Below, piece after piece: positions 6,323 to 62,460 of a stretch of 64,000 nt of DNA (positions are counted from its first letter, which is position 1; each line of letters begins with the position of its first letter). The position numbers were made by a program, and so were the translations under genes. The stretch is from assembly GCA_946699065.1 (NCBI GenBank), contig CAMPDV010000383.1, positions 124,001 through 188,000 on the forward strand, in the 5' to 3' direction. This DNA is from Loxodes magnus. Its lineage: Eukaryota; Ciliophora; Karyorelictea; Loxodida; Loxodidae. The notes under the pieces were generated by a model. That model was not told the origin of the DNA, did no database searches, and saw only the letters and a list, made by a program, of their open reading frames with translations.

Positions 6323-6760
6323 ATGGCGGTTTTAAAAAATATAGTAAAAGTTAAAACACTGAAGAAGGATTAAATAAACAAGAAATCGAAGTTAAACATC
6401 TTGGAGAAAAAAAATAGTATTTTAAATCAAAAAAAATATAATGAATGTAGAAGAAGAAAGATATACAGAGGGAACTAGAATTTAGAAGGATTGTCAAGAG
6501 ATGTTATCTAGCTAATCAAGATTCCATGTTTTCAAGAGATGCAAGAAATACAAGTTCATGACGAAGAGAGACTATGAAGAAATAAAAATGGAATTGACAA
6601 GACAATATATAATTAAGGATGAAGAAATTACAGGAGTAGAGTCTTTTAGGCGTGTGCCAGTACTCTAAAAAAGCTGAATATTCTGAACTTTTCTATTGTA
6701 TCACCAGGAATTAACTATGCAAGACAGTGCTTAAAGTTTTAAACTCCTTGCTTAAGAATA
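6323..6760 (+). mobile_element. Z element, degraded copy
   Basis: An ATGGCG at 6323 opens a basic stretch, then sequence closely matching the Z element at 60036: NLEGLSRDV here, ILEGFSRDV there, and RRVPVLQKSW here for IRVPELRKNW there. The Trp is TGA in this copy and TGG in the other. The knuckle region is decayed. Confidence 0.6.
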
Positions 6761-6884
6761 TTTTATAATTTAATGATATAATAATATATACAAAATTTTT
6801 ATAATGAAATGTTCTTTAAAAAAATTTAACCACTTTTTCTCTTATATATCACTTTTAAAAACATTTAAGATAATCATAATATAT

Positions 6885-7620
6885 TAAAGCGACGAAATCT
6901 TTATTTGGTTAGTCACTAATAGAGTTTGTAAATTTTTTTTATCTTCAATAGGCTGCATAATCAGATTCTTCTTGATACTTTTAGTCGTAAATTCTTATCA
7001 CTTTCTTGATTTCTTCTCAAGCTAATGATTGACAATAAAATTGTACTATCATTTCTCGAATAGTCTCAGTGCATCTATAATCTTTGGAACATTTAAATAT
7101 GGTTAAACTCTTTTTTTAAATATAGTCTTCCATTTGGCAAGCAGTAAATGCTAAATAGGCTATAAGTAAATTTTCTATTGCTTAATCTTATTTTGATTAA
7201 AATTCCTAGCAAATTTTTATCTTACTGGCCTAATTTTTGCAATATCAGCATTTACCGTTGCTTTTCTAAGAGAAGTTATAGAACGAATTCCTTTCTTCTC
7301 TTGACTCTGGAATAGTTCATTTACTAATTGTAATTTACTCCAATTGATTAACCCTCAAATTCAAGTTTTTTTCTTAAATTCATTTGATTGTATTAAATTG
7401 AATTTTTATCTATTAGGAGAGAGGATATTAGTTACTTTCTTATTTAAAACTCAATTCATTGATCAGTTTGCTGATAGTTAGCATAAGAGATTAAGCAATT
7501 TATTTTGGATCTTATTTTCTTTTATTGGTTTCAAGTTTTTCAATTGCTGTATGTAGAAATCCTTATTTAAGTCCGGTTAATTATTTGGTTTTCTTGGAAA
7601 GGTATTATTTTAGATGCCAT
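6885..7620 (-). mobile_element. Z element; coiled coil with knuckle remnant
   Basis: The frame starts at an ATGGCA at 7620. A block PNNQPDLNKDFYIQQL matches PNNQTDLANDFYWLQL in the element at 28800-29532, and the knuckle remnant KCWYCKNQ (Trp from TGA) matches RCWYCINQ there. Near the 3' end (6889-6920) is a G-x-GAC/GTC-AC palindrome like those of its relatives. It looks old and non-functional. Confidence 0.65.
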
Positions 7621-8834
7621 TTTTTTTATATTAATAAAGCCTATTTGATAAATATACATCCATATATAATATTTTATAGGCTAAGAAAATTATTAAATTA
7701 ACCATAAGAGGAACACTTAGCAATATTCTAATAAAATATAAAATTAAAAATTAGCAATCTGAAAAAAAAAGAATCTATTGTTAATGTAATAAAAAAGTCT
7801 TAAAAGATATATTTTTTCTTATCATTTTTAAGTCTTAAAATTTTTTATCTTCTTTCATTAAGCTATTTTTTATTCTCTTTTAATCTTAAAAATGTCTTTT
7901 CTGCTGTTTTTTTCTGTAAAAAAATTTTCTGTTTTTTTCTTTAGAAACTTTGCTTTTCTTAAGTTAGGATTTACTTCTTTTTTCCTACATTGCTGTATTT
8001 AACTATAGCTATTTAGATTTTATTTTTCATTCAAAAGTTTTTTTTATTATTTTTATGTAAAATTTTTTGTTTTTATCTATCTTTTTTTGATTACTGTTTC
8101 ACGTTTCATATTTTGAAATACATTTAATTTTTTTAACATTATACACTCTTATAATATTTTTTATATTTTAGTTAGATATTTTGAAGTGATATCTCTTTTT
8201 TTTTAATTACTTTTTTTTTTGCAAAAATGATTTAAATACATTTTTTCATTAAAAAAGTATCTAGAAATTTTGATTTTGTAACTTTTAAATTTATAATGTA
8301 GTGATATTACTTTTGCAATGAAGATTCTATATTTTTATAATTTTTTGATTTATTTATTTATTAAATAAACTTTTTAAACTAAAATGTGAAATAAAATATC
8401 TGTCCAGATAAAATGTTTTAAATTTTTATTTTTATTTATGTGTTACTTTTTTCGCTATCTTAGAAGCTTTTTAAGTGGCAACTTTTTAATATTCTTTTTT
8501 TCCGTTTGGCTTTTTTATACTTTTTTTTTCTAGCTTAAATTTAATTTTCTCAATTAATTAACACTTAGATCGTGCTTTTTAAAATATAATATAGATTTTA
8601 TTTATTTTTAACTATGTCTTTGTAGTAATATCTATTTTATTAATTTTATTTGATTAAAAAAGCTGACAGATTTTTCGAGGATTAAAAAACATTTTACATT
8701 TTTTTTGATTTTCGTATGATCTTTCTTTTTAATGTTTTTTTTACCATCGTTTAAATTTTTTAAATATTATTACTTTTTTAATTCTTATTTTTGTTAGAAT
8801 CTTTTATTTTATCTTTTTTTTTCTAATTTACTTA
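7621..8834. other. T-rich upstream region of the first FkbM gene
   Basis: Long T runs and no believable frame. From about 8650 it aligns with the sequence upstream of the second FkbM gene, so this part belongs to the segmental duplication. Confidence 0.5.
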
Positions 8835-10089: not shown

Positions 10090-11290
10090 CAAAATAAACC
10101 CTAAAATTAGTTAATTTTAAACTTTTATTTTGCTTTTCATAATTCTTTTTTATATTTTATCTTCTCAATATAATTCTCTTTTAAATTTCTTACTTTTAAA
10201 TATTTTTATTGGATTTGTCTGAATTTTTCTGGATTTTTTCCTTTTACTTCATTGAAGAAATCCTTTTTTATAAATACTTGAGTCATTTTAAATATATTTT
10301 TAGATTGGTATTAATTCTTAAAATTATTGTTCATTTTTAAAAATAATTCAATATAATCAAAAATAATCAAAAAAATTATATAATATAATTATCTTAAAAT
10401 TTATAAAATAATTATAGCTTAGAAAATATTAAAAAAATAAGATTTTAAAAGTGTTGAATTTACATTTTTTTTTCAATCATTATTGGCATTTTTATTCTTA
10501 CAGGTAGTTCATGAACCTAATTATTAATAGTTAAGATTAACTTTGTATATTTTAATTAAAAAAATATATTGATAATAATAATTGATTAAAAGAAATTCTT
10601 ATTTTAATAGAACCATCACATTTTTGAGAAAATTTTTTTTTAATTATTGATATGGAATATTCCTTGCTATTCCCTAATTGACAGTAGCTTACTTTCTATT
10701 TTTCCTCTTCAGCTCAGTCTTCTTTCCAGTCTGATAATAAATGCTCTTATTTCTCTTTTAGACTTATTCTATTTTTAGTCTCTTTTTGCCATTTTTTTAC
10801 ATTCTTGCATACTCACTTTCCTTAATAAAGTTTATTCTATAATAAATACCTTCTTTTGAGCAATATATTTAACTCATTTTGCTTCATAATCTTTTTTGCT
10901 CTTTATTTACTTTTATTTAAAGCATTGCCTTACTAAATGACTTTTACTCTTGCAGAATCAACATCTTAGTGGATTTCTACAATTAAAGGTTTGAAATAAT
11001 TATTGTTCTTTCTCAATATTTAAAAAATCTTAATAATTTAGTTTATTTGACCATTAATTATGCCTATAAGAAAAATTGGTTGAGTCTCTATTCTATTTAT
11101 TTTAGTTAGAAGCTTATTTCTCACATTTCCGTTTACTGTATCACCGCAATTTGCAACTAGGCCTATTTTACGATTAATTTTAAGACTTAAGATTTTAGGG
11201 GTTAATTCTTAGTGAATAGTTGTTATATTTATTTTAGTAGTTCATAGTTATATTTTTAATTTCCTTTTAGAAGAAATTTGATCCTTTAAA
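10090..11290 (-). mobile_element. Z element convergent with FkbM paralogue 1
   Basis: A coiled coil leads into a complete CCHC knuckle, CWFCKSKSHLVRQC (10922-10963, Trp from TGA), then KKDYEAKWVKYIAQKKVF. The homologue in copy II of the duplication reads NWFCKRKRHLMRLC. This element was already in place when the segment duplicated. The start is not clear. Confidence 0.65.
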
Positions 11291-11469: not shown

Positions 11470-12363
11470 TAAAAGTGCCTCCAGATTTCTCCGGAGGCTA
11501 AAATTAAGTGTTCGAACTCATTCCACTGTCCTGTCTTGCTTGTTCTTAAAGTCTCCAGTTTCTCTTCCATTACTATTTTCCTTTTTTCTTGTATATATTC
11601 CTAAGAGTGTCCATCCATAAATATTCTCTATTCCTTCTTAGTTTGAGCTGTTGCTACCTCTTTTTTTTCCTACTGTTATATTTGCTTTTGTTAGTAAGTC
11701 TGTTTGAAATTTAGGAAATTCTTACACTTCTTTCGCAAGCGTTCTCTTGAGCAATTTGTAGCAGAATTTCACTTCTCGCTTGTATAAAGAATTGCCAACT
11801 TTAATTTTTACGATCTCCATCTTGTCTTAATTCTAATCCCCTGATTCAATTTAATTTTGCAATGTTTTCTGATTTCCTACTGGCTGTGCTAATACACCAT
11901 CAACTTCTCTATATTTTTAATCTTGATTCTGGGATTAGCTTTTCAGACTCTGAGATATGTTTCATAAAGCGCTTAGATCCCTCTCCTGAGACATGAGCCT
12001 TGATTCGATTTCCTCTTGCTTGTTCAGATTCACCATTAGTTTGTCATTGTCATTTTTCAGTTTCCTGATCTCTTCCTGGAGTTCAGTACCACTTTGATGA
12101 GCAATTTCATACTCATCTGGCTAGAAGTATTGAGCTCCAAAACTTCCCAATGAAGAGCAGTCTTCATCTGCTCCCTTTGCTTCTCTTATGAGATTGAAGT
12201 TATTGCATGTGTTATCTTCTGAAATTGTTTCTGTTCTTCTCCAGGTTATTAGGATTAAGAAAAAGGTTAGTTTTAAGGGAAAGAAAACTATCCGAGATTG
12301 GATCCAGGTTTCCTCTCCAACTTTTCTGAAGGAGTTGTAGAAACCTCTTTTGAATCCTTCCAT
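11470..12363 (-). mobile_element. Z element with intact frame, MEGFKRGFY type
   Basis: From the ATG at 12363 the frame stays open for nearly 300 codons: MEGFKRGFYNSFRK, a membrane-like segment (about residues 28-40), then a coiled coil (ELQEEIRKLKNDNDKLM) and a region CYKLLKRTLAKE that aligns with the knuckle but lacks most ligands. The C-terminal WVRTLNFSLRRNLEA resembles its relative at 52.5-53.6 kb (FANFLFSLQNNLEV). The Trp of WVRT is TGA here and TGG in the 60-kb copy (NWMTRTF). A 6-bp hairpin (GCCTCC/GGAGGC, 11477-11498) overlaps the last codons. Confidence 0.7.
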
Positions 12364-12465
12364 TTTTTAATTCTGAGTACACTTATATTAATATTGACAT
12401 TTAATTTCCTTCAAACATATTAATGGTGATTTCACGTTATTTTTTTTATCTTTTATGCTAAATAC

Positions 12466-12944: not shown

Positions 12945-13109
12945 TGTTTTTTTAATTATTTTTCTTTTTTAAACTAACTATTTTTACTCATTTTTTCCTT
13001 TCCTCTCTTTATTATTCTCAAGTTAACAATTTTATATAGTCTATTTTTTATAATAGTCCGTTTAACAAATATTTTTTCAGATTTAAAATAATTTAAATTA
13101 AATTTAAGA

Positions 13110-14040
13110 TATTCAGAGAAGGGATTGTTTTCTTAATAGTTTCCTACTCCCTATCCAACTGATAGGTACTTGAACTCTTGGTGGTCTGTTCCTCCAGTCA
13201 CTTTCAAGTCTTCGTAGTGGATTGCTCCGAATATTGCTTTTCTTTCTATAAATATTCCCACTGCTAGTTGGGTAGAATTAGGTTAGTTCGTTTCAAATTT
13301 TCTTTTGGATCTCTTTTCTTTATCTACATTTCCTTCAGAGATGGTTTATTCTTCCACAGATAAAGCATTTTTTCTTAAAGTATCTTTCTTTAGTTAATTC
13401 GATTTGTTTATTCTAGACCTCTTCCAACTCCATTGGAACGGAGTGTGCTGTCTAGATCTTGATATCATTCTTGATATTCTCCATTTTAAGGTTAATATTG
13501 TTTTCAATTTTCTCTAACTTGATGTGCATGTTCTCGTTCATATCATATAGCTATTCCAACTGCCTGTCGAATTCGTCAATTCGAATATTCATGGCAGCTT
13601 AGTTTTTGTTTCTAGGAGCATGCATCTCCTCATCGTCCAGGTGTCATTGTTGTTCTTGGGCAAGCTCCATAACCTATTTCTCTAGGTCTTAGTTATGGCT
13701 AATTAACGATTATTAATTTAGCCATTTCCTCTTTAGCCATTCCGAGTATTTGTTCCTTGTTTATCTCACCGAGGTCCATATATGGTGAGAAGTTCCAAAT
13801 TTGCGTCTGAAATTCGCTTATCTTCTGCTTCTTTGGAAGATTTTCCGTTGAGGTAGTAGCTTGGCTATGTTTCTGAGGCTGTCTGGGAGGAGTTATTTAG
13901 AGTTATTTTTAGGTCTTCTGGGGAGAATGTTATTATTAGAGGGTCTAGGTTTGGGTTTTAGTCTTTAGAACTTCCTGCTTCCTCTCCTCCTTTTAGACTT
14001 TGGAGGAGGTGGTGTAGAAGCCTTTCTTAAGACCTTCCAT
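13110..14040 (-). mobile_element. Z element with complete zinc knuckle
   Basis: Starts at the ATG at 14040 (MEGLKKGFYTTSSKVQ), close to MEGFKRGFY at 12363 and MAEGLKKGFF at 60036. A long coiled coil (IDEFDRQLEQLYDMNEN) precedes the knuckle CFICGRINHLWRKC (13326-13367), where the Trp is TGA. IWNELTQFYPTSSGNIYRKK follows; the same block is IWKELTNFYPSSDGQLWRKK at 57 kb. Here the first Trp is TGA, there TGG. Confidence 0.75.
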
Positions 14041-14241
14041 ATATTTTTTAGTTACCTTAAAATTAAACATTTAATCTTAGTTTTTTACAAAATAAAATTT
14101 TATATAGACTATCTTTATATTTTAAATTAGTATTTTCTCATTTCAACATTAAAATCTTCTTATCGCTTTCAGTAAATACTGTATCTTAGAAACTACAATT
14201 CTCTAATTGCAATCCATGAATTAGTTACAATTCCTGTTAAC

Positions 14242-16368: not shown

Positions 16369-16859
16369 TTTTAAAATATAAGAAATAAGTCTTTAATATT
16401 ATTTTATCCATCATACATTTAATTAAACCAATATAATTAAGCATAAATTCTAGAAACTGAAAATTAATATATTAATACAAAAAAACCTTAAATATATAGC
16501 ATCAAGTAGAATTAAAAAAGTATATAATAATAAGTAAAAAATTAAAATTAAATATTTCAAAAATTATTAAGTATATAAAGACAATAAAGAATTGAAATAT
16601 CAAAAGAAAAAATGAAAATTAAATTTAAAGCAAATAGAAAGAAAAAAAGATATAAGAAATTCTAGATAATGGAAAATTAAAAAACCCTATTAATGATTGA
16701 AAATTTAATTTCTATAATTTACAATTTAAATAAATTTTAAAATTTAATAATAATAATATGAACTTAAAGCTAATAATTTTAGCATTTCTGGGATTTAACC
16801 AGTTCCTATTACGGATTTTTAGCATAATCGTATACAAATAGACTTTTTAAGCGGGTAGT
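16369..16859. other. Upstream region of the WD40 gene
   Basis: A+T-rich; no coding signal seen. It should carry the promoter of the minus-strand gene starting at 16368. Confidence 0.4.
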
Positions 16860-17546
16860 TACCTCTATTAATTTTCATAAAGAAACTCAGGAAATTTTTA
16901 TTATATATGCCGGTTTACGTTATACATAGTTTATTTAATTACCTTCATGTTCTTCTTTACTCTTTTTAATTTATTTTTTCATTATTAGCCGTTATGTAAT
17001 AGATGCTGACAAAATTGATAGAATCAACATTTTTTTTCAATTTTTATTATTTCAGATCGCTTTATGAATTTTTTTTTAATTTTTCCAATCTTTTAATGAC
17101 ATTATTTTCAATTATTTTAAAATTATTGCTATTTACTTTCTTAACTTGAGTTGAAATTTTTTTTATGTTCATTTTCTAGTTGAACTTTAAACTTTATTGA
17201 GATTAAAGCAAAGTTTCTCTTCATTTTAAAAATTTATTCTTGATAAACTGATTTCTAAGGATTTCCCTTTTCGTTATCTACACATTTATATTTTTTTCAG
17301 ATTCCATATTTACTTGCTTTTACTAAAAATAGTATCTTCTTACCAGGATATAAGTTTTTTCATTTCTTAAATCATTTTTTAGACCTCTTCAGATATTTAC
17401 ATCTTAGATTCTCCAGTTATGAGCTTTTTCACCTTACGAATCCGAATTTGATTCTTCTTATTTCTTTTCGACTTTACGCATTTCCTAAGTTATACGCTTC
17501 TTAGTTTTTCTTATTGCGTTTTTCGAGAGTTGAATAATCTACTCTA
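16860..17546 (-). mobile_element. Z element, old copy
   Basis: The head EQIIQLSKNAIRKTKKR matches EQSIRLSKNQIKNAKRK of the intact element at 50083-50902. A coiled-coil stretch and a knuckle-like CWFYQFCQHLLHNG follow at about 17015-17055. It looks inactive. Confidence 0.6.
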
Positions 17547-17954
17547 TCTTTCTCCCTCTAAAACTTTTATTATAAAAATCGTAAATATTTTTAATAAACT
17601 ATAATAATAAGTAAATTAAAATAAAAAAAGCCTAATTAACTTCAAATAAACTTAATTAAAAGTCAAATCAAATTTAGTCGAAATATACTTTGAGTATTAA
17701 ACACTTTAATACATTCAATTCTTATTGAATTAAAGCTCTTAAATAACTTTAAATTTTTGCTCTCTTGAAAGATGTATATTAAGCTATAAAACTAAACAAT
17801 AAAGAAATAATAGATTGATTCATAAATAAGTTTATTTTAAATCCTTAAACATATAGTATTAAAATATTTAAAATTATCTATAAAGTTTTAAATCAATAAA
17901 AGCAAACCCAAAGAAATAACTAGATAAGAATATAATTTTGGTTTGCCTAAGAGT

Positions 17955-18262: not shown

Positions 18263-18419
18263 TTAACTCATTTTTTATTAATTTCTAAAGTTAAAAAATT
18301 AAAATTTCTAAAATATTAAAAAATTAAAAAATATTTGATAACCTTCTTAAAAAATAAAATAAAATAAAAAATTATATTATAGAGTGCGTAGTACCACAAT
18401 GTCGCGCATCTCTTTTGAG

Positions 18420-21400
18420 AATGTTACTATAATTCATTTTCCTCCAATAAATCACTTGGTAGAAGATATTCTTCACATATTTCCTCAAATTCTTGATTCA
18501 TTTTTTCTTCTTATTCTTGTTAGATCCCGCTTTCTGCTTATCTCCTTTTAATTATTCCCTATTTTCATGCAGTTTATAATTTTTCTTTCATTTGTTCTGT
18601 ATTTTCTTACCTGTATCTTTTTTTCTATAGAACATTTTTATACACTCATAAAAATTATCCCTTATCAGCTCAATAATCTTTACCTATTTCTATTTATCAA
18701 ACATTCTTCTTTTCTTAATATCTTTTTTTCTTTATTCTAAAATGTAGTTTATAAAATCTTTTACTATTAAGTCGATTTATTTTCTCTTTTCTACTACCTG
18801 TAATCTAATGTATCTTTCGAATTTGGCTGTACCTCAAATAATATCAAATAGTTGTATTCCCTTGAAGTTTACAATTATGTCTTTTAAGCTATTTTAGCAT
18901 TTTGTTCTTTCTTCCTTGTATTTTACACATTTTTCTATTATGTGATATTCATCTCCCTTTATATTATTACATAATGGACATTCACTTTTTGATGCTAGAT
19001 GTCTTTCTTTTAAGCAGTTCTAGCTACCATTACATCTTGTCTTTAGTCTAAAAGTATAGCATTTTTCTTCTTTCCTGCTCTTGTTATATCTTATATAGTT
19101 TGGAGGGCCTTTTAAAAATTCATCAAATCAATACATTCTGTATATGCAGGCTGTTTTCATTTGTTCCATCCTTCATCTATCTTCCACATAAACTCTATGC
19201 TCTCAATTTCACGGCATATATTCTATCTCACTCTATTATATTGACCATCTTCTGCTTGAATTTCTTTATCCTTGATTTTCAGTTCTGATTTTATTATAGT
19301 GCAGTTCTGTTCAAATATAAAATTTTCTTAGCTATTTAGCTCGAACAAAACTCCGTCCACTGTTTCGCCTTTGTTTTACATTAGTTTGCTCCTCAGTCTT
19401 AGAGTTTTTTATCATAGGTAATGTTTAAATTTCATGAACTACAATTCGTGTTCAAGCATCTCATTTTATACGCAAAAAAGTGCATCAATTATGGCTCTCA
19501 TTGATCTTCTTTGAAGACACTCCAATTGTTCCATTATTAGTTTTCCTACAAATTGTTCGCAATACGGAAAGACTTCAGTGCCATAACTGAAAATTTCATT
19601 TACAAAGGCCTTATAATTATTCCTTTGTTTATTGTTATTTTTCCTATTGTTCATGATTGCATCTTTTGAGCCGCTTCTAATCTGTTCTCCATGTCTTTTT
19701 CAAAGCTAATGCTTTCTTCTATGATATGTCCCAAATACTAAAAAGTCTTAACCCTTTCTACTTGCAATGATCCAATAGTCATTGTCTTACCAATATTTTC
19801 ACCTTCTTTATTGTCTTCTGCTTTCCATCACATTCATTTCGTCTTGTCTGCTATCGACAGTTTAAATCTATCTGCTCAAGTAATTAATTCTTTAATTACA
19901 TCTTCCTACTTTCTACTTCGCACACTATTGCTAAATCACCCGCATATCAAAACACCCTGCATATATATCTTATAAATATCCTGACTCATTTCTGTACTGC
20001 ATATTAACTCCGAATCTTTCTCTTTCTAGTATGTGTAACAATTTTGCTATTATTAAGTTAAATAATTAATGTGAAGATATACTATCTTATTTGACACCTT
20101 TGCTTGTAAAGAAAGCTTCCGATATTATATCATTGATCTTTAAATAAATTTCTTCTTCTTAATAAAAACTTACCATTAGTCTTATTATCTGTTCCAGTAC
20201 CATCAATTCATTTAATATTTATCACATGTCTCTTCTTTGTACTGAATCATAAGCTTTTTGATATCTATGAAAAAGACTAAGCCAATTCTTTCATTTTTTA
20301 TTAGATATTCTTATACCGTCCTTAGATTGAAAATTTATAGGACACATGACTTACCAGTTTTAAAATCATATTGATATTCGCTTTCATTTTTATATAAGCA
20401 CCCTTGCATTTACTATAGTATCCATCTATCTATAATTTTTATACAGTGATTTAAAAGGGAAATTGTTCTATAGTTTAGAGGGTTCATCTATCCTCCCTTT
20501 ATATAATAATATTATATATTGCTATTTCATTTCTTTTGGGATTACCCCTTCATCTAAAATCCTCACTATCATTTTGCTTGTAATATCAATTAACTTTTAT
20601 CCACCTGCCATAATCGTTCCATTTTGGATCTCATCTGAGCCAGAAACTTTCCATTTGGAAGTTTATTTTAGGCTTTCCTAGATTTCATGTTCGTACACCT
20701 TAATTTTATTTTTATTTTAAAAAACCGTGGGTAAAGTATTATCTCCTTCTTCATATAATTTTCTTCATTAGTTTCTAAATCTTTGTGCATCCTCTTTTGT
20801 AAGCGGTGTTCATTGTATTTACTTCCTATTAAATAGATTTTTTAGTTTTTTCCACATTACAGTTAAGCTTTCTTTATTTATATTATCAATAAATAAATTA
20901 AATTAGTTCTTTTAATCTTTTTTTCTTGCCTTAATTAATTTTTTTCTTGATCTTTAGTATTCATTATATATTTCTCTTTCTATTTCTTCACCGAACTTAC
21001 TATCATTCTTTACCATTGTTTTTACTTATTTGCTGCATTTATCAAAGTATATTCTTTTCTATTTTGTTAATTCTGAGTACTGTAACTTAATTCTATTTTC
21101 TTTTTTCATTCCACATATCCTTTTTACACCTTCTTGGATTTAACTTTTTCATCATTCATAAATTATTCTCCATTCGTGATAACCATCTCTTCACTGTGTA
21201 CGTTTTCTTGTATATATCTTTCAAGCCTTTTCTCAAAGTCCTTTTCTTTTATTATTTGGTAATTTATTTTTCTTGCTTACAAATTTTGACATGTTTACTT
21301 TCCAATCCTTATTTATATGATGCCAGGTCTATGATCTCCTATCACATATGAGTAGTAAAAATTACTCTTAATTATATTTTCTATGATTGATCCTTCAAAG

Positions 21401-22232
21401 ACGAAATAATCAATTTATTATTCTTTATTTTGGAAGACATAAGTTCCTAAATTAACTGGATATATATATACCAAGTTATTTTATTACATAAATTGGAGCA
21501 TCTTTCTTCCTGCTAAGTTTGTCTGTCTTGGAGGTCATTTTTCAATGAGAGCATTTAAGTCTCCTATCATTATTATTTGAAGGCCTTTTTCTTTTGATTT
21601 TAGGTATAGTGAATTATAATAAATTATAAAATGTTTCATTATCGTTTGCTACTGGTGCATATAAATTAATTATTGCCATTTTTTCATAACTTCAATGGCT
21701 ATCACAAGAGCTCCACCAAATAATATAGTTTAATTCACCTCGTACCCTATTTCTTTTACCTCATTGTTTATTTCATTTTTAATATAAAAAGCTACCATTT
21801 CTCTTTTTTAGAACCAACTTTAACTAAACTTTTGAATCCTGCTATGCTGCACATGTCATTTTGATTATCAATCTAAATTTCTTATATAACCATAATGTGT
21901 ATTTTTTTATGTTTCATAAAATTAGCTAATGTATTTTTTACACCTCTTACATTTGCTGTGCTTATTTTTATTGTTAGTTGATTAGAAACATCCTTGTTTA
22001 TCAGTGCTAACAAATTTTCCTACAGAATAACTTTTTCTACTTCTTACAGGTTTTCTTGAATTTGCTGGTCTTTTTTTTCTTCTTTTACTTAATCCTGATT
22101 GTTTTTTATAGGATCTGCTTATATACTTATATATCATTGACCTCTTATAATTGACATGCTTGAAATTTGCTATGCATTTATATCTTTCGGTGATTTGCTC
22201 TATATATTTTAGTTAATGTTTATTATTTCCAT
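18420..22232 (-). CDS. LINE ORF2: endonuclease, reverse transcriptase, CCHC end (frame-shifted)
   Basis: From the ATG at 22232 (MEIININQNIQ), an APE domain begins TANVRGVKNTLANFMKHK with MVIQEIQ. At least one frame change follows, then INLYAPVAND and MIGDLNALIEKWPPRQ (near 21560, Trp from TGA) and IDYFVFEG. The RT fingers read SGSDEIQNGTIMAGGQ and GVIPKEMKQQYIILLYKG. After another frame change comes NPLNYRTISLLNHCIKIIDR, then GLVFFIDIKK. The palm motif is FWYAGDLAIV (19935-19946), YAGD where most LINEs have YADD. SYGTEVFPYCEQFVGKLIME and CPLCNNIKGDEYHIIEKC (18970) complete the usual C-terminal zinc region. Confidence 0.8.
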
Positions 22233-22449
22233 TTATTTCTTTTTTCTCACTCTTATCTTGCTTATTGCTCTTTACTTAATTAGCTTTTCCCTGGATTAAC
22301 GTGTTTTGATTAATTTCCTTTATAATTTGAGAGATTTATAATATTATCTAGATTTGTTGTATCCTTTCCTTACCATTTATCATATAAATTTTAAGTGTTT
22401 ATCTAATCTTTATATTATCTCCTTTCTAGCTTACCTAAATCTCTCAACA

Positions 22450-23411
22450 TTTCTATGTCTCATCATTTCTATATGTTCAGTTCTCATTTTAAGAAAAGTA
22501 GTATTTTTAAGTTCTTTGGGAGTAAAAGGTTCTGTACATTAGTTTAACTTAATTTTTAAAAGCGTTTTTAAGTTTCCTTTTCAGAAATTTTCCTAATCTT
22601 CTTTAAGTTCTTCTATGATCCTTTTGTCTTCAACCTCTTCTGTCTTTTTTCTTCCTACATCCTTTCCGCTCTGGGTTGATTTAGTACTAGGCTTATTTCA
22701 CTTTTTTGAGACTCCAATTCCTTTAAGTAAATTTTCTTTTCCTTGGCTTCTTCAACTCTCCTATATTATGTGTCCGTGTGTCCTTTCTTTTTATATTGGT
22801 TGCAGTTATAGTTTGAAGGTGTACCAGCCTCATTTCATTCAATGCAGATCTATCGTTTCTGGGATTTTGTTGGCTTCTTCGATATTCTATAAATCTACGT
22901 ATATTATGCATCTGCCTGTTAGAATCGTTGTGTTTAGGTAGGTGTGAATTAGATCACTTTTGATTTAACCAAATTAATTTAGGATCTCCTTCCCTTCCTA
23001 TAAATTTGAAAACTCGTTCAGATTAAATTAAATTGGGTAATTATGTATATCGTAATATGCCGTCATATCTTTAGTTACATTGGTATTACAGCACCTTAGT
23101 AGTTTCATTCTCTATTACTTGTAAAGTTCTTATTCTTTTCCGTGTCATTAAATACTATATATACTATTCCATTAGCCTTGGCAGAAAATCTGGCCGCAGG
23201 TTAGCCATATTACTTCCATATTCAATCCCGTAGGTCCTTTATCGTCTCCTATTCCCCTATGTTCTTACCATCATCCTATATTCTCTATATAGTGATTAAA
23301 GTAGATTCCCGCTACCATATCCGATAAGTCATTGTATGCATTTTCGTAAACTCTGGTGATTTGTTCTTTGGGTACTAGAGCTGGCAGTTTTTCTTTATTT
23401 CGGTGTTCCAT
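22450..23411 (-). CDS. LINE ORF1
   Basis: From the ATG at 23411: MEHRNKEKLPALVPKEQITR, then IYFNHYIENIGWW (first Trp TGA), NMEVIWLTCGQIFCQG, and a basic C-terminal third (RRFIEYRRSQQNPRNDRSAL; KPRKRKFTQRNWSLKKVKQ). It has no zinc knuckle and no resemblance to Z elements. An overlapping upstream frame begins at the ATG at 23622 (MEARETHIACGLFRTN). It presumably binds the element RNA; the 3' end is approximate. Confidence 0.6.
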
Positions 23412-23889
23412 AATGATTTATGTCTAGTTTTTCTTTTATCATTTGTAGCCTTAATTTTCGTTTTTTTCTATTCCTTTATTGCATACCAGCCCTTAAAACA
23501 GTTGCATAAAAGAATTTAGTTTTGGAAGCTTTGACGTTCCAGGCACACAACATCCAGTGTGTGTTGAAAGTCAAGTTGGTTCGAAATAACCCGCAAGCAA
23601 TGTGTGTTTCTCTAGCTTCCATAATAAAAATTATTTTTAATAAAAAAGCTCTAAAAGTTCACTTCTATCATATTATCTCTTAGAAATTTATTTATTTAAA
23701 TAACAAAAATGCTTTTCAAGAGTTATTTAGCAATTTATTTTTTCTAATTATTTCATTTTAATAATTTTAAATGATTTTATTAATGAAAATATGATTCTAA
23801 AATAATAATAAGATAAAATGGTTTCAATACTTTGAGTATTGGGATTTAATTGCATTATTTATAGTTATATTTCATGCGAATTATGTCAA

Positions 23890-45960: not shown

Positions 45961-46431
45961 TCATAGCATATCTCCTAGTTGTCTACATAGGAAATTATTA
46001 TGGTTTGCAGACCTAAGGTCAACTTCTCTTTTTGCCCCAGAAGTCTTGTGGCTTATTATAAACTAAGCTTCCTTCAGTTCTTGATATTATTTATACTTAT
46101 ACTTCAACATCTTAAAACTGTAAGGCTTTAACTCCTTCTTCAACTTGTTCCAGTATCTACGACTCGAATGCTTATACTTGTGGGATATATTTATGAACAA
46201 CATTGCTTAATCTCTATTTCACTCGTTATTTATCAAAGGAAGAAGCACGTATATCCATCTTCGTTTTATTTGCTTATCAGTTTTAACGATTTGATCTTAG
46301 TGGAAGATTTTGTTGATATGTTTAGCTATTTTAGTTCATCTATAATAGAACTTAGGTAGTTTCATTTTATCCATAATGAGCTGATCCTCTTGATAAGACC
46401 AATCATCATCAATGATATCTAGTTCTTTCAT
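45961..46431 (-). CDS. Two-repeat Myb/SANT-like protein, copy A
   Basis: ATG 46431, TGA 45961-45963, 156 codons. The first repeat is DDDWSYQEDQLIMDKM...RWTKIAKHINK...QIKRRW, the second NEWNRDQAMLFINISHKYK...YWNKLKKEL. Helix-core tryptophans are a mix of TGG (DDW, RRW, YW) and TGA (YRW, NEW), in keeping with TGA as Trp. It is nearly identical to copy B to residue 123 (ISHKT), after which the C-terminus is different (SGAKREVDLRSANHNN). It is probably a DNA-binding protein of unknown target. The 5' flank is also duplicated for some 55 bp. Confidence 0.8.
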
Positions 46432-47714
46432 TGTTATAATTACGATTATTTAATAAAGTTTAAATATCCTTAATTTAAATAAAATGCATTTAAAATCACT
46501 AGGAGTTAAAAATTTAATTTTAGTTATACTTAACCTTGATTAGCAGTAAGTTTAGAAAATACAGTCAAGTATAAAGAACTGATAAATATTAAAAACAAAA
46601 AATAGAGCTATCTTTATAGAAAATAAATCTATTATCTTAAATTTTTTCAACTTTAACAGAAGCTTAATAGACATAATTCTTTAACTCATTTAAAAGTCAA
46701 TTAAATACTAATAAAAAGATTATATTTTTAAATTAAAAAGTTTATAATAATTTGATAATTTAATTAGAGCAAAGCTACCTAAGCATTTCCTTTTAATTTT
46801 AGCTTTTCTTCCAGATAGTTATATTTTTATTTATTTAGTTAATATCTATTTATCATAATCGTTTATTTTTTATTATTTATGCTTCATTTAATTATCCCTA
46901 TCTAAGTATAAATATAGGAAGAGATGATGCTTTAGAAGCTAAGTTATTATCTTAACTATCCTTTTATAAAATAAAATAGATAGCTTAAATCTAGTAATTA
47001 GACTTCTACTATATTTTAATAAAGAAGCAATATATTTTTCTTTATTTATATTGCTAAATAGACTAAGGAATGTAAAGTTAACTAACTCTTCTGCTACTGG
47101 GAGTATCACATATTCCTTAGTTATAAATGGTTTACTTTATACTTTTTCAACTATCGAGAGAGAAGTTATGATCTTCTTTCATGCTAATAGACTTAAACTT
47201 ATCTCTTTAATCATAAATCTCCTTTTTGTTGATAAATTTATCTCAAAAAACTAACTCTACATGTACCTTTATTCGTTTCAATCTCAATAATATAGAACTT
47301 AATTTAGTTTAATTCAGACGCTTTTATAAGTATAATTTTGGAATATAAAAAGCATGTGCATTTACTTGATACTTTATTAGGAGTGTTAGCAAAGCTTATT
47401 TAGTATATTTATATGATGTATGAAAATTATTATTTTTATAACTTTAAATATCAACTAAAAAGCTTAAAAAATCTTAAGTCTATAGAACGAAATTTCCCAA
47501 AATAAATAGAAAGAAATTTAAAAAAAGATAGGAAAGTTTCGTGAATATCACTTAGATATATAAGACACTTTCTCTTATAATAAATTTGTATGCAAAATCG
47601 ATTTCAATGCATCGATATTTTAGGTAACATCTTTCCAGATTAAAAGAGTAGATAACTACTATAAGCTATAAGGATTTATTTTGCTTTTAAATGATAAAAG
47701 ATATAGTAATTTTT
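46432..47714. other. Spacer between Myb copies A and B
   Basis: A+T-rich. A minus-strand frame at 47000-47240 (MIKEISLSLLAWKK) is possible but I would not call it. Confidence 0.4.
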
Positions 47715-48053: not shown

Positions 48054-48817
48054 CTCTAAATAGACTCTATATCTTTGTTTGTTGATCATGTTAGTATTGC
48101 TATAATTTAGATTTAAATACTAGGGATAGATAACCCATTTCATAACTCCTTTTACTTAATTAAGATCATCTAAAAAGGAATGGGTTTGCTAAGTTATTCT
48201 AATTGCCTTTGATTCCACTTATACAATCATTCTACTCTTAACTTAACTAAAATGTATTATATGATTTGTTCGAATTAATTAGTTCTATAGAAAACGCAAG
48301 CAGTTATCTTAAATCTTCGTCTTGTCCAATAAAAATATTCCGAATTTAAATATACCTAACAATATTTATTTATATTTAGTCTGATTTTTTAGAAGTAAAT
48401 GTATATGATAGCAGCATAATTATGCATATGATTAAAAGTAATTTATTTAATTTAAATTTAGCCTTATGAATTAAATAAACTTAGACTTACTGTTTATTTT
48501 ATACGTATCTAGCATCTGAGGCAAACAACACTTAGGAGTACATTTAAATATTTTAATTTATCTAATAGTTAGATTTCAGTTAATACCATATCCCACTTTT
48601 ATTTCTAGCAATTTACTTAGTTTATTTCTTCTTTATTCCTCTTTATAAATTTTATCTCTATAAACTCCTAGCTAAACATATATCTATCTATTATATCTAA
48701 ACATTAATGAAAAATGTATAGAATTTAATTTATTAAGTATTCATTTATTAGTTAAAAACCCCATTTTAATTTAAATTAAGGATATTTAAACTTAATTAAA
48801 TAATCGTAATTATAACA
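48054..48817. other. Spacer upstream of Myb copy B
   Basis: No coding signal. The last 55 bp repeat the 5' flank of copy A in inverted orientation. Confidence 0.4.
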
Positions 48818-49282
48818 ATGAAAGAACTAGATATCATTGATGATGATTGGTCTTATCAAGAGGATCAGCTCATTATGGATAAAATGAAACTAGCCAAGTT
48901 TTATTATAGATGAACTAAAATTGCTAAACATATCAACAAAATCTTCCACTAAGATCAAATCGTTAAAACTGATAAGCAAATAAAACGAAGATGGATATAC
49001 GTGCTTCTTCCTTTGATAAATAACGAGTGAAATAGAGATTAAGCAATGTTGTTCATAAATATATCTCACAAGTATAAACATTCGAGTCGTAGATACTGGA
49101 ACAAGTTGAAGAAGGAGTTAAAGCCTTACAGTTTTAAGATGTTGAAGTATAAGTATAAATAATATCAAGAACTGAAAGAAGCTTAGTTTATAATAAGCCA
49201 CAAGACGATATAGAAGTAGGAGATAAAGTAGAGAAAGGCAGATGTTTTAGGATCTTTAAGTAAGTAGTTAGAAGGAATATGA
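48818..49282 (+). CDS. Two-repeat Myb/SANT-like protein, copy B
   Basis: ATG 48818, TGA 49280-49282, 154 codons. It starts MKELDIIDDDWSYQEDQLIM, has WTKIAKHINKIF, QIKRRWIYVLLPLINNEW, and ends IQKQEIKQRKADVLGSLSKQ-LEGI. Copies B and C share this C-terminus, so it is probably the original one. It is in inverted orientation to copy A, 2.4 kb away. Confidence 0.82.
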
Positions 49283-50062
49283 TATTGTTAGTTGATTATT
49301 AAATTTAGAATTTGTTTTCAAATAAAATAAATGAAGTCTTTTGCCATTAATCTATTAAGATATTGCTTGATAAATATTTTATTTTTAAAAATAAATCTAA
49401 TTTTATTTCATAAACACAACAACTTTAAATAGTACCTATAGAAATAATTAACTTGTCTCATTTATGTTTTTTATTCTTACAATTTTTAATAAATTTTTTG
49501 ACTGGACTCTTATAAAATGCTGAAGAGTAAAAGACATCATAAAACTGTTTCTAATAATTACCTTTTTATTAATGGATATATTTATTAATAAAGACAAATA
49601 CTTTAAAACCGCTACTAAGAATTATAATTAACTCTTGATTTTATTTTTCAAAGGTATTTTTGATTTTTAATCTTTTTTATCTTATTTTTCTTTCTTACTA
49701 TCATTCAACTACTTGCTTTAATACATTTATTTTCTTATCTTTTCTTATAAATTTTTAAGCCTTTAAATTTCTATCAAATAGATTAATTTTAGTTGCTAGT
49801 AAGTTCTTTAAACTTAAATCATATTTCATTTATTACATTAATTTGCTTACATTTATAAACTTTCCAATCATTTTATTTCAACTAAGCTTTATTTAATTTC
49901 TTGTTGGTAGCAATGAATTTCTAGAGTTTTGTAATATTAATTAAATCTTAACTAAAATATGTGAAATCCTAGCTAACTCCTTTAGATTCTTCTTCATTAG
50001 CAAGAGGTATAATTTTTGTAGAATAGCAACTATTTATAAATTTAATGTATATCTTGCTATTA
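49283..50062. other. A+T-rich spacer
   Basis: Nothing recognised apart from the left target repeat of the next element at its end. Confidence 0.4.
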
Positions 50063-50082
50063 TTTTTATCTTTAAACTTTAT

Positions 50083-50902
50083 ATATATATAGTAAACTAA
50101 AAGTAATTAAAGTTTAGCATTCCCTGGATTTTCAACCAGGTTTTTGCTACCATTTTTTTAGCGTGGATGGATACCACGCCATTTTTTTTTGTGGATGGAA
50201 CCACTGAGAATCTTCTGTCTTTTATAAGAATATCTTCTTCTTGTAAATTCCCGTTTCGGTGATTCAGAGTCTGCTAAGCATTCTTAACGTTCTTTGTTGT
50301 TCTTTCATCTAAATTTATCTCCACTGATCGCAATTTTGTAATAGGTGTCACTTTGATTTGCAATAATAGCAATTTTTGATTGGTCTTTTCTTGAATCTCT
50401 TCAGAAATACTTTTTTTTCAAGTTAATCGATTCTTTGGAGTAATTCTATATTAATCTTTTCGTCATTCTATTTTTCTTGGATGTTTGTTTATGTAGAAAC
50501 TTTTTCAATAATCATATTTTGTTCTTGCTTAAAATTCGATTGAGATTATTCATATAGTTACTATTCCGTGACTAAATTATTTTAAATCAATTGTCGTCTT
50601 ATTATTAGTAGCTCGTTGTTTTAATCTTCGATAGTATTCATTAGTTCTCTTATTTTTTCCCCTTGATTGTAAATTGTTTCCTAATAATTTTGTATTATTG
50701 TTTTCATTTAGTCAATTTATATTTAGATTTCTGATTATTTTTGTACTTTTACTGGATTCGTCTCTATTGTTCCAATTATAACTTTTCCTTCAGATGAGGA
50801 ACTTGATTTATCTTCTTCTTGTTATTGTTTCTGCATTAGTTTCGCAGCTTTCCTTTTTGCGTTCTTAATTTGGTTTTTGGAAAGGCGAATAGATTATTCC
50901 AT
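50083..50902 (-). mobile_element. Z element, type copy: intact ORF, 20-bp target duplication at the start codon
   Basis: 820 bp between perfect copies of TTTTTATCTTTAAACTTTAT (50063-50082 and 50903-50922). The sense strand begins with the ATG itself (50902) and has no leader. The frame runs 256 codons to TGA 50132-50134: MEQSIRLSKNQIKNAKRKAA, a Ser-rich hinge, a coiled coil (IIQNYQETIYNQGEKIRELM; INIELLQRIDQLEKKVF), the knuckle CYYCKSKWHLLQNC (C-x2-C-x4-H-x4-C, Trp TGA) and TGIYKKKIFLQK. Near the 3' end lie three hairpins: GTGG/CCAC (50191), GCGTGG/CCACGC (50161-50179) and CCTGG/CCAGG (50123-50140), then about 40 bp of A/T. Its intact frame and exact duplication suggest a recent insertion. 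Confidence 0.9.
50132..50902 (-). CDS. Coiled-coil CCHC zinc-knuckle protein of the type Z element
   Basis: 256 residues, LINE ORF1-like in plan: N-terminal basic helix, long coiled coil for self-association, one zinc knuckle for nucleic acid, and a basic Trp-rich C-terminus (WYPSTLKKWQQKPG) whose codons overlap the hairpins. Neither reverse transcriptase nor endonuclease is encoded, so movement must depend on enzymes supplied by a LINE. Confidence 0.82.
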
Positions 50903-51021
50903 TTTTTATCTTTAAACTTTATTTACTTATGACTTACTCTATTAAAATTTTCCCTTACGCTTAAAAACTTTTTAAATATATCCAATTATTTGGAATTCTA
51001 AAAAATATTATTTGACGTTCA

Positions 51022-51800
51022 ATGGGGTTAGGAACTCCAACGCAATAAAACCACGAGGAAATCAAAAAATCTACAGATAACGACACTTGAGGCAATAATG
51101 CCTGCCTCAGATGATAAACCGAGAAAATAGACGAAGACCATCTTACATCAGGAGGTCTCAGGCATTAATCCTTCTGGGCAGATGAGTATGGAACATCTCA
51201 TTAAGGTGGTGCTGAACTTGCAGAAAGAGGTTAAAAAACTCCGAAAGGAAAATATTAAGACTACTAAGTAAAATTAGTAGAGGGAACTTGATACCTCTGG
51301 GACCTACCAGCATAATAATTCAACTAGAAAAACTCTTAAGTATAGAATATTAAAGAGCAAAGCCAATATATTGAAACCATCCTATAGAATCAGAAGAAAA
51401 ACTAAAATTAACATAACCTAATTGACCTCAAAATGGACATTGAAGTACAAGGACCAAAGAAGATTACGAATCGTGAATAAGCAGTTAGAAAATAATGTTA
51501 CTATTGTAAAATCAAATGACATCTGTGGAGAAAATGCTCTAATTTTCAAAAAAATAAAGAATAAATTTGAAAAAATCAAGTAAAGAGAAGAATAAATAAG
51601 CTAAAAAACTAGATCTGATAAAAAAAGAGTGGTAAAACTTATCGACTGAAATTAAATTTAGATATACAGGAGATTGATGAAATACCAAAAAATAAATTTG
51701 AAGAGCTTAAAAAAATGGGGGAACATTTTTTGCGAATTCTTAAGCTCGATAAAAACTGGAAACTTTCAACTTGAAAACTTTATTTAATCAGTGATCATTA
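51022..51800 (+). mobile_element. Z element with complete knuckle
   Basis: Head near the ATG at 51022. The coiled-coil frame includes SMEHLIKVVLNLQKEVKKLR. The knuckle CYYCKIKWHLWRKC (51496-51537, first Trp TGA, second TGG) is one of the best preserved. It lies 100 bp from the type element on the opposite strand. Confidence 0.7.
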
Positions 51801-52508: not shown

Positions 52509-53600
52509 ATGGAGAACAACATAATATCAAAAATTTCCGAAAAAGACTTCTAGGTAAGCCTGACTAGAAGAATTTAAAAAAAGTCACTCGAATCTTAGTC
52601 ATCGAATCAAAGCAAACAACTATAAGGAAAATTAGAAAATTCTTCAATAATAAAACAGAAGAATTAAAGAAAGCCAGGATTCTTCACAGCTCCAAAAAAG
52701 AAGGAGTAAACGAAATCCTAGAAAAGCTAGGACCAGGAAAAGATACCAAGACTGTCGTTCGTCAAGATGAATCTTCCTCTTCTGAAGAAAGCCAAGGAAA
52801 TAAGATAAAAATATAATGCGATCGGAAATCTCTAATATCATCACATAATAGTTAATAAGCTATTATTAGTTGATTAAAGTTATGATGGATCTCCAGGAAG
52901 AGATAAAAAAAATTGAAGAAAGATAATAAGAAGTTAATAGAAAAATTTGAACTTTCAGAGGTAATAGAACCAATACCCATGAATTTAGAAAGAGACCTTA
53001 ATGTATTTTGAAATATTTCACAAAACTAGTTTAGTCAATCTCAAAATTATCAATAGAAGCAGAAAGAATATATCAGCATGTTAGAAAAAATAGAAGAGAA
53101 TAAGTAATTGCAGTGCTAAATGGAACTTAAAGAATAAAGAAATAATCCGATGATAAATGAAGGTGAAAAACTCAAGTTTTCAACCTAAACGAGAAGTAAA
53201 AAGATGTTATTACTTTAGCTCTAAAAAGAATCTGTGGAAAAGGTTTTAAAATTTCTCAGCTTCAAAAAGAATACTGAGACTAGTAGAAATGTTTAAGAAT
53301 AAAAGAAAAGATAATAACAACTAAAGCTAACAAGAGAAAGAGAAAGATTATATTACATCAATTTTAGAGAAATTCGTAAGAAAAATATTCTAGCATCTAG
53401 AAGAAAGAAGAATTCAAGGACAACATGCATGGCAAGGAAATTAGTTTTAGAGATTTGCAAACTTTTTATTTAGCCTCTAGAATAATCTAGAAGTCGACGG
53501 GAAAGAGGTTGAAATTCATCAAAGAACTCCAAAAATTTATACTTATATTTGCATAATAAAACAGAGAAAAATCCGTATATGAATAATATGACAAAAAGAA
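52509..53600 (+). mobile_element. Z element, older copy
   Basis: MENNIISKISEKDFQVSL at 52509, coiled coil (YISMLEKIEENKQLQCQMEL), knuckle remnant CYYFSSKKNLWKRF, then YITSILEKFVRKIF and FLFSLQNNLEVDGKEVE, whose end matches SLDVSGNEVE in the 60-kb copy. Confidence 0.6.
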
Positions 53601-54200: not shown

Positions 54201-55327
54201 CTTATAATAATAGAAAAAATAATATTAATAAATTCCTATCAAGCTTACTCATATAATAATGCTACATAACTACTATTTCTCATAAGAGATACGTATATAA
54301 CCTTAGGAATGCAATTCTTACCCTAAATGTGTTAATAATAATATTTCAAATAGAAAAGAAAAGAAAATAAATTTACGGTTATATATAGTCTTAGTATAGA
54401 TTTTTGGAATAATTTCTAAAATAAAATTTATAATATTCAATGAATTGCGTGATATGTAATCAATCGTGTATATATCATATAAATGATATTAGAAGATGAG
54501 TTAAAGTAAAAGTTTATAATAAAAGAAGTTAATTTAATAATTTAAAATATTCTTGTTAGATCTTTCATCTTCAAAGCCTATTTCTTATTATTACTTTGAA
54601 TAAAATATTAAATAAAAGAGTTAAATAATTTCATTTTTATAAAGATTCCTAATTCAACTGAAGATATTTAAAGATGCTTTAACAGTTAGACTTCAGAACT
54701 ATAATGCGAATATTTTGAAATACCAGTTAAAATAATAACTCAAGAATCTTAATTTATTTATTATAATTTTGACAATTTAAATACTACATTGTAAGATACT
54801 TTATCTTAAGCATGCTTAAATATTATTATTTTTCTAAATTTTTTCTTTTATGGAAATAAGTTTTTGTAATAATTTAACTAAAAATGCTTAATAACTTTAT
54901 AAGAATGGTTGATATGGAAATAAAAAATAATTTAAACAAATTACTTATGTAAATATAAGGATTATATATCAAAGAAATAGTTATATCTTTATATTAAGTT
55001 AGAAAATATTATGCTATTTATACAAATGCTTCCTAAATACTAATGCATAATCTATAATTATTAAAAATAAATAAACTATCTAGATTTATAACTATTTATG
55101 CTCTACTATTTAATTATAACTGGTATAACTATTTAGCATTATCAATCCTACACTTTCATTTATATTAGTTCGTTATCTTTATAGTTACTATAGAAAATAA
55201 TATAATATATCAATTTAATATTTCTTTATATAAATATAAACTTTAATAAATCATAATTAAAAACTCTATATACCCATCATTTGTTTAATTAGAAAATACT
55301 TCTAAATTTAATAATCAACTAACAATA
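54201..55327. other. A+T-rich intergenic stretch
   Basis: No credible frame. Confidence 0.4.
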
Positions 55328-55792
55328 TCATATTCCTTCTAACTACTTACTTAAAGATCCTAAAACATCTGTCTTTCTCTACTTTAACTCACACTTCTAT
55401 ATCGTCTTGTGGCTTATTATAAACTAAGCTTCCTTCAGTTCTTGATATTATTTATACTTATACTTCAACATCTTAAAACTGTAAGGCTTTAACTCCTTCT
55501 TTAACTTGTTCCAGTATCTACGACTCGAATGTTTATACTTGTGAGATATCTTTATGAATAACATGGCTTAATCTCTATTTCACTCGTTATTTATCAAAGG
55601 AAGAAGCACGTATAACCATCTACGTTTTATTTATTTATCAGTTTTAACGATTTGACCTTAGTGGAAGATTTTGTTGATATGTTTAGCAATTTTAGTTCAT
55701 CTGAAATAGAACTTGGAAAGCTTCATTTTATCGATGATGAACTAATCCTCTTGGTAAGACCAATCATCATCTATTATATCTAATAATTTCAT
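55328..55792 (-). CDS. Two-repeat Myb/SANT-like protein, copy C
   Basis: ATG 55792, TGA 55328-55330, 154 codons, same length as copy B. MKLLDIIDDDWSYQEDQFII, FRWTKIAKHINKIF, QIKRRWLYVLLPLINNEW. It differs from B by scattered substitutions, the three copies keep the same TGA Trp positions, and the frame is intact, so it is likely a functional paralogue. Confidence 0.82.
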
Positions 55793-56824
55793 TATTATAA
55801 TTAGGATTATTTAATAAAGTTTAAATAGAGTTAATTTAATTAAAATGGAGTTGATTATAAAAATGAGTATTAAATACATTGATATTAAGCTTATGATATA
55901 ACTGGAATTATTAAATGATAATAAAGTAGTAGAAATAAATGTGATATAATGTTCTTATTTACATATCAAAGATGTTAATATGATTGAAGTTAAATTGCTT
56001 AGTAGCAAGTTATAATAAAATTGAAATATTACAATATTAGAATGATATTTTATAAATACTAAGGAAGAAAACTAAGCTATTTGGATATTGCAATATAAAT
56101 TATAAAAAGAATTTCAAAGAAGCTAAGAATGACTATACTGTCTTCTTTATGCTTATAAAAGATTTGATTTTAGCTCTAATTTCTATTTATTATTATAAAA
56201 TATTTAAGTCTATCTAAAATAAATTTATTTGGAAGCAAAAAACGAAAGAAGATATTACAATAGAATAATAGGCATATCATTTGTAGGATGTAGAAATAGG
56301 CGCATTATAATCTAGCTTCAGTTATGAAATATACCAAAAATGAGAAATGTAAAGCTAATTGATATCATTAAGAAATGATTTATTATATAAGAAAGTGTAA
56401 GGTTTAACTGTATTAAACCTTTTTAATATAATTGTGTAGTTAAATCATTTTAACTCAGATCTATATCAATGAAAGTTTAAAATAGACCAATGTAAGTGTA
56501 TCATGAATTATTGCTCTCATATTATATAAAGTTTCAGTGATAGCAATCAAAAGAATTTAGAAACACATTCTAAAAATAAATAGTAAAGAAAAAAGGAATA
56601 AGCTAAAATATAGAGATAATTTAGTTAGCGAAATAGATATAAGTAGAAAAATAAAGTTATTTAAAGGAAACAACATAACTATAAATAAATATCTCATTAA
56701 ATTTACTATTAATACAAAATTTCACTAACTTGCTAACTTAAGTTAAGATTTAAATTATAGTTAAAATAGCTTATTTACTTTTAATTAAAATAATACTTTT
56801 GCATACTATAAGCTATTTATTAAC
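55793..56824. other. A+T-rich intergenic stretch
   Basis: The first 60 bp share the Myb 5' flank. Otherwise nothing is recognised. Confidence 0.4.
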
Positions 56825-56837
56825 TAGCTTATTAAAT

Positions 56838-57665
56838 GAAATTAAAAATTTTATGGATAATGGAATGTTTCCTTAATAGGTCCATAACCCCCTGCATTAC
56901 CTTTTACAGGGTCTCGGACGCGCCGGTGTCTCCACCCAAGTTCACTTCCGAGCTTTCCGGATGGTCTTGGAGTTATCTTTTTTCTTCAAAGCTAACCATC
57001 CGAGGAAGGATAAAAATTTGTAAGTTCTTTCCAAATATTTTTTCTTATTTACCAATTCCTCCTACACTTTTTTCATAAGTGGAATAAACTGCTGCATATA
57101 TAACATTTTGTCTTGAAAAAATTGTTCTGTCGTCATAGGTTATTCTTCTATTACCATTGGATCATTATTTCTTTTTAGGTCTTATTCCTCTAATTTTCCT
57201 AGTCTCTTTTTTATGTCCGTTATTTATTAAAATGCGTTTTCATACTTTAAGAAATCTGTTCCCATTTATTCATCAATTCTTACTATATCGCATTCTATTT
57301 CTTAATATCTGTTGTTAATGTCCTCTTTGGTCACAAATTCATTATGCGGTCTCTCGTCCTCGACATGAACTTATAAGTCTTATTGTAAATTCATGATTAA
57401 TGTTCGAGGTTCTCTTCCTTATCAATGTAATCAAAAATGATTTAAACAAGAGACTTTTTATCTTAGTTCATAAGTTGTTCGAAGGTGTAACTTTTTTTTG
57501 AAATCTTGGAAGGAAATTATTTTTCTTCTGAGATTTTACAATATTATTTCTTTTTAGTCTTTGTTGGAGTTTGTTAGATCTGGAAATATTGATCTAAGGA
57601 GCTACGAGAAGCCTTTCATTCGAGAAAGCCTTTGTTCCATTCCGCCATCTTTTGTTTTATTTATA
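56838..57665 (-). mobile_element. Z element, 13-bp target duplication
   Basis: Bounded by TAGCTTATTAAAT at 56825-56837 and 57666-57678. After a 17-nt A-rich leader, ATG 57648 reads MAEWNKGFLEWKASRSSLDQ. The knuckle is CYICSSLFHLWKKC (Trp TGA), followed by IWKELTNFYPSSDGQLWRKK. Near the 3' end a GGTG-GAGA-CACC hairpin (56925-56936) with a GNRA loop lies where relatives have differently spelled stems. The last 80 bp are much more G+C-rich than the flanks. Confidence 0.78.
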
Positions 57666-59065: not shown

Positions 59066-59136
59066 TCCGAGGCCGGGGATTGAACCCGGGTCGTCTGCGT
59101 GACAGGCAGAAATACTAGCCACTATACTACCTCGGA
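59066..59136 (-). tRNA. tRNA-Asp (GTC)
   Basis: 71 nt with perfect acceptor (TCCGAGG/CCTCGGA), anticodon stem TCTGC/GCAGA, loop CTGTCAC giving anticodon GTC, and T-arm CCGGG/CCCGG. Convergent with the tRNA-Glu gene. Looks functional. Confidence 0.95.
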
Positions 59137-60010: not shown

Positions 60011-60023
60011 ATAAATATCTTTA

Positions 60024-60869
60024 GTAAAATAAAAAATGGCAGAAGGTCTCAAGAAGGGTTTTTTTGTAGGCTCCATAGATAAAGGAGCAAAAACCAGAGA
60101 CTTCTAATTCTTCATCCATCACGTCTTCTTTAATAAAATAATAATCTTCTTAATCTTAATAACCTCTAATAGTTGAAAATTAAAGACAATCTTAAATAAA
60201 ATAAGAACTTAAATAAGCATAAACAGAATAAAACTAATAATAAAATATTGACTTTCTTCCTAAACCTAGACCAAGTAACTATAGGAAATAAGAGAATCCA
60301 AAAACGATGCAAAAACAGACAAATGAAGAATAATTATTAATTGAAAGTCTTTTGAAATCTGTGCGTATTCTGTAAGAAGAAGTAAAAATATTAAGATAAG
60401 AAAACAAAAAATTATTAGAAAAAAGTTAAAATACTGAAGAAAGATTAGTCAAATAAGAATTCGAAGTATAGCAACTTGGACAAAAAAGAATAGAGCCTCT
60501 AATCTAAGAAATAAAAATGGAAGTAGAAGACGATAAGTAAAAAGAACCAACCAATATTAGAAGGATTCTCAAGAGATGTTACCTGTGCTAATCAAGATTC
60601 CATAGATTCAAGAGTTGCAAGATATACAAGGAAAAGACGAAGAGAAACAGCGAAGAAATCTGAAGAGAATTAACAAGAATTTACGTGACGATAGAAGGAA
60701 GAATTTACAGAAGAAGAATTTTCCATTCGAGTTCCAGAACTCCGAAAAAACTGGATGACCCGAACTTTTATTTTAAGCATACAGGAGCGATCACTGGATG
60801 TCAGTGGAAATGAGGTTGAAACACCTCAAAACCACAAACACTTTAATTAAGTATATTATTATTATTATT
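60024..60869 (+). mobile_element. Z element, 13-bp target duplication
   Basis: Bounded by ATAAATATCTTTA at 60011-60023 and 60870-60882. A 12-nt A-rich leader precedes ATG 60036 (MAEGLKKGFFVGSIDKG). A Gln-rich coiled coil (LLKSVRILQEEVKILRQENK) leads to the knuckle CYLCQSRFHRFKSC and IWRELTRIYVTIEGRIYRRR (Trp TGA). The 3' hairpin TGAGGT/ACCTCA (60811-60828) is followed by an A/T tail with ATT repeats. Confidence 0.8.
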
Positions 60870-60882
60870 ATAAATATCTTTA

Positions 60883-61700
60883 ATTTTTCTTCTTAAAATT
60901 TAAAATTTAATTCCTAAAATTATTTTATGCAAATAGAGAATTACTTAGTATTATTTATTAGGTTTATAATCTTAATTTGATATTCATATGCTAAATAATA
61001 TAAAGATTTGAGTGATTGAATCAATAGGGGTGTGGAATGATAAAGGTATTTGATTTACAAAAAAGATTGGCTCGACATTGTTTAAATCTAAATTTCATCT
61101 TGTTGGTACCATAAATTTTAAAGTATCTTATTTGATTTTAAGTATAAGTTAAGAACTCATTTTATTTATATTACTTCATTAGCTTCTAATTTTATTTTTA
61201 TGGTGTTTAATGTATATCTGTGAAATCTAATATCTTAAAGCTTTTTTAGTTAATTCTTGCTAGTTAGATTATCTTTCTATTTAGAAATTTAAGTTTGACT
61301 TTTCTACTCATCTTGACAATGAAAATTTAAGCTTTTAAGACTTAATAGTATTTCCTTAATAAGAACTAAATATATATATAAGATTAAATTTCTATAGTAG
61401 TTATAATACATGTATATTAATATATTTTATTAGTATAGTAATTTCATCTGGAGAGTTATATAATGATATAATTACTAAAGGCTAATTTGTAGAATCTTTT
61501 TCATTATTTAATCATGAAATAAGGAAAGGAGATACTTATTTAACCAATTTTATCTTTAGATTTTTTCATTTATATACCATAAAGGAAAGATATACTTAGA
61601 AATATCATTAATGCTTCTGCTTCAATTCCTAATAATTGAGAATATAATAGAATCTAATTTCTCAACTCCTCGTGTTTCATCTATTTCTCATTCTAATATT
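60883..61700. other. A+T-rich spacer
   Basis: No gene seen. Confidence 0.4.
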
Positions 61701-62460
61701 CTTACTATTTAATATTTATATAAAAAAGAAAATTTCTTGCAAAAGTCTCTTCTAAACAGGATCCATCCCAATCAAATTAATTTTTGCAAAACATACTCTA
61801 AGATTTCAAAGTTATGCAATAGGAGAATTTTAGACTTTTAAAAAACGTATAAAAGCTAGAAGGAAAACCACATACCTAATGTCTAACACATAAATACTAA
61901 AAAATGAAAATACCCAATTAGTCAATACGAGTTGAACAAATATAATCCAAATTCAATCAATTAGCGGAATTAACTGAATAATTATTTATAAAAATACTTC
62001 AACAAATTACCCCATAGATGAGGAGCTGAATCCTCAACCAGCAAAAATTCCGATAGTAATGAATAGAAAGTAATGCTGGCATTGCAGGAAATATGACCAC
62101 ATTTTGAAATATTGCTGAAAATTCTAATAAAAATAAAAATTTTGAAGCTTTAAGTTATGAAAATCCATAAGTAATCTTATTCACTCTAAAAAGGTTTACT
62201 ATACAGACAAAGAGACACATAGAAAATTATAATCTTTAAGAACATCGCATTTGCTTAATAAAGAAGAAATTTGAATATGCTTGGAATCGAACTTGATTGA
62301 AGCAAGATACCTTTTATTAAAAAGGGTTAACAGAGTATTGAAAAAAATGTTTTCAAGAAGAAGACCCAGAAGAAGCCTGGAAATGGAATAATATTTAGCA
62401 CAACTTAAAGTTTTAAAGCATCGATGAACCTTGTTGATAGGTAGAATCATTATAATTAAT
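61701..62460 (+). mobile_element. Z element, matches the 3' half of the long form
   Basis: Homologous along its length to 31.0-31.7 kb (ATAGGAGAATTTTAGACTTT here, ATAGAAGAATTTTAAACTTT there) and carries a complete knuckle CWHCRKYDHILKYC (62074-62115) followed by WKF (Trp TGA in both). The 5' boundary is unclear; it may be 5'-truncated. Confidence 0.6.

Follow-up and report, generated by a model that had tools for sequence, protein, structure and literature searches.

Z elements of Loxodes magnus: small, putatively mobile units with a single gene and no copying enzyme

Z elements and their described counterparts

HeT-A, a component of the Drosophila telomere, has no reverse transcriptase (RT) of its own and bears CCHC knuckles. 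Its open reading frame (ORF) is described as Gag-like (PMC2861651). TRE5-A.2 of Dictyostelium consists of ORF1 only, without an RT, and is described as seemingly mobilised in trans by the similarly active TRE5-A.1 (PMC5391098). The mammalian HAL1, or half-L1, elements are likewise ORF1-only and flanked by target-site duplications (TSDs), with RT and endonuclease supplied by full-length long interspersed nuclear elements (LINEs) (PMC5322556). Here we describe the Z elements, which occur as a group in a window of 64,000 nucleotides, positions 124001–188000 of contig C383 (the whole stretch analysed), from the ciliate Loxodes magnus.

As judged from their sequences, Z elements are small units with one gene for an apparent RNA-binding-type protein; they lack a copying enzyme, appear to have been active recently and are abundant in the genome. 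Because that enzyme is missing, they probably borrow the one encoded by larger jumping genes. By analogy, a Z element would work as TRE5-A.2, HAL1 and HeT-A do, as an ORF1 or gag without a polymerase. It shares the ORF1-only plan and lack of RT with TRE5-A.2, the ORF1-only plan and TSDs with HAL1, and a gag-like ORF with HeT-A. However, TRE5-A.2 derives directly from a resident LINE whose ORF1 it shares, and it targets tRNA genes, whereas in none of the three LINE families read was the Z protein seen. HAL1 is derived from L1 and ends in a poly(A) tail; Z elements end in a hairpin that contains the stop codon, followed by an A/T repeat, and their protein appears unrelated to the LINEs read. The EKA genes of powdery mildew are described as a family that arose from a LINE ORF1 (PMC4641428), but these are effector genes and Z elements are mobile units. 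No description of a karyorelict family like Z turned up in literature listings, whose coverage excluded supplements and most subscription papers.

Copies, protein and genetic code

A sequence-only reading had proposed a swarm of such elements; its interpretation is supported and its observation borne out in part. The assembly searched comprises 705,730,643 bases in 7843 contigs and holds at least three Z subfamilies, each with 40 scored copies. For the element at 50083–50902 (−), which has both the reading frame and the hairpin, all 40 scored rows cover positions 1–818 of 820, and identity is 820/820 in each of the 20 copies fetched. Its 20-bp TSD (50063–50082, identical to 50903–50922) is one of the direct repeats first proposed, as is the 13-bp repeat (60011–60023/60870–60882) of the element at 60024–60869 (+), which matches at 99–100% in 40/40 rows, with TSDs in 11/11. 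The 13-bp repeat flanking 56838–57665 (−) is by itself no better than chance; that element is recognised by profile (leave-one-out, 35.8 bits). The element at 28801–29545 (−) is missing at the paralogous site 10572–10589.

Profiles built without them score the parts at 34770–35480 (−) at 34.8 bits and 16730–17560 (−) at 15.7 bits (leave-one-out, 12.9 bits for the latter). The other Z parts lie at 6323–6720, 51030–51800, 52550–53520 and 61690–62465 on the forward strand and at 6890–7640, 10590–11280, 11474–12385, 13080–14060, 29563–30279, 30970–31760, 31700–32400 and 32935–34000 on the reverse.

Neither ORF2 nor any other polymerase is present in the full-length unit; the sequence-only reading had noted the missing RT. 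The A/T tail it described takes the form of (AT)n or (ATT)n, and the stop codon lies inside the 3′ hairpin. Of the proposed coiled coil and CCHC knuckle, a long helix is predicted with high confidence in a single-chain model; the CCHC-like knuckle is recognised by pattern, with no match in Pfam, and RNA binding is putative. TAA and TAG stand for glutamine. At shared tryptophan positions of the Z proteins, TGA interchanges with TGG (HLwRKC/HLWRKC, IwNELT/IWKELT). Both features agree with NCBI table 27.

Alternative origins and the search for a partner

Derivation from a resident LINE by loss of its ORF2, as in HAL1, is an unlikely origin, although the absence of a polymerase fits it. Among 3403 RVT_1 candidates in the genome, 20 stretches were read, covering three families (LINE I–III); the Z protein matched their frames at a best E of 0.74, and the Z profile finds nothing inside the window's decayed LINE with an endonuclease (Exo_endo_phos_2; 18340–23641, −; nearest LINE II). 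HAL1 is an analogue in its workings; Z elements lack its poly(A) tail. Since the defining homology to the ORF1 of a resident LINE is lacking in the three LINE families compared, membership by descent in TRE5-A.2, HAL1 or HeT-A is not supported. One Z subfamily appears to share its 3′ end with a LINE; a LINE with the same 3′ hairpin had been suggested as a search target.

In thirteen full-length LINE I–III copies (loci among L009–L028), TSDs did not exceed mismatched flanks. At L010 (4580–4720) and L027 (1750–1860), Z elements directly adjoin 5′-truncated copies of LINE I that run in the same direction, both LINE parts lying near a CAACTAA; either adjacent insertion or template switching would account for these junctions. 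Solo pieces resemble the LINE I 5′ end (36015–36112, −; 74%, E 2e-11) and its 3′ hairpin (5843–5898, −; 89%).

Still less probable are parasites resembling short interspersed nuclear elements (SINEs), with an incidental ORF. The length of Z elements (0.75–0.85 kb), their lack of a polymerase and the 3′ end that one subfamily appears to share with a LINE are in keeping with this, and an open frame alone carries little weight where all three stop codons can be sense. In 3′-end partnerships with LINEs, SINEs, unlike Z, generally carry a small-RNA part at the 5′ end, and they are not known to encode a conserved protein; two pairs point to selection on the Z protein. No RNA polymerase III promoter or small-RNA head was found for Z: Rfam and ARAGORN detect just two tRNA genes, neither of them within a Z locus.

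Remnants of gag-only long terminal repeat retrotransposons, already disfavoured, are very improbable: the CCHC-like knuckle recalls them, as does a weak hit of the profile in the PDB, to Copia gag (E 0.023), and Z has no terminal repeats. A host gene family giving rise to processed pseudogenes is equally remote, the mRNA-like units with TSDs being offset by the several subfamilies, the missing poly(A) tail and nested insertions (L059).

Other repeats of the window and significance

A separate retroposon family of about 320 bp, X, is unrelated to Z. X1 (30280–30602, +; 323 bp, 10-bp TSD, empty site 11269–11278) begins near AGATGGCGGAAGC; X2 lies at about 33347–33665 (−; 15-bp TSD, read) and X3 at about 4258–4560 (+), inside a LINE I fragment (4103–5279, +; 75–86%). 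Among the 40 that were scored out of 2840 genome candidates, the others match at 88–90% across nearly full length. The segmental duplication 8601–11462/26791–30796, 81% identical in its best-aligned part, holds a gene we read as FkbM-methyltransferase-like. Repeats at 46043–46486, 48727–49334 and 55277–55880 (mutual identity 91–98%) encode a stretch we read as Myb/SANT-like, and 123-bp tandem repeats at 3212–3967 (−; 98% matches) are read as WD40 repeats.

The published 706-Mb macronuclear (MAC) assembly of L. magnus is described as leaving 757,000 interspersed repeats (366 Mb) unclassified (PMC11441545), and the Z families are probably part of these. The presence of identical copies at many sites suggests that the system is live and that selection retains an ORF1-like protein in the absence of its polymerase. 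The role of ORF1 for its own RNA could thus be tested separately from ORF2, and the difference in TSDs between subfamilies, with a putatively borrowed 3′ end, may make helper specificity readable from sequence. Through the stop codon in the 3′ hairpin, a genetic code that lacks a dedicated stop is tied to retrotransposition, and Z elements make it possible to test how parasites of this sort exploit another element's machinery.
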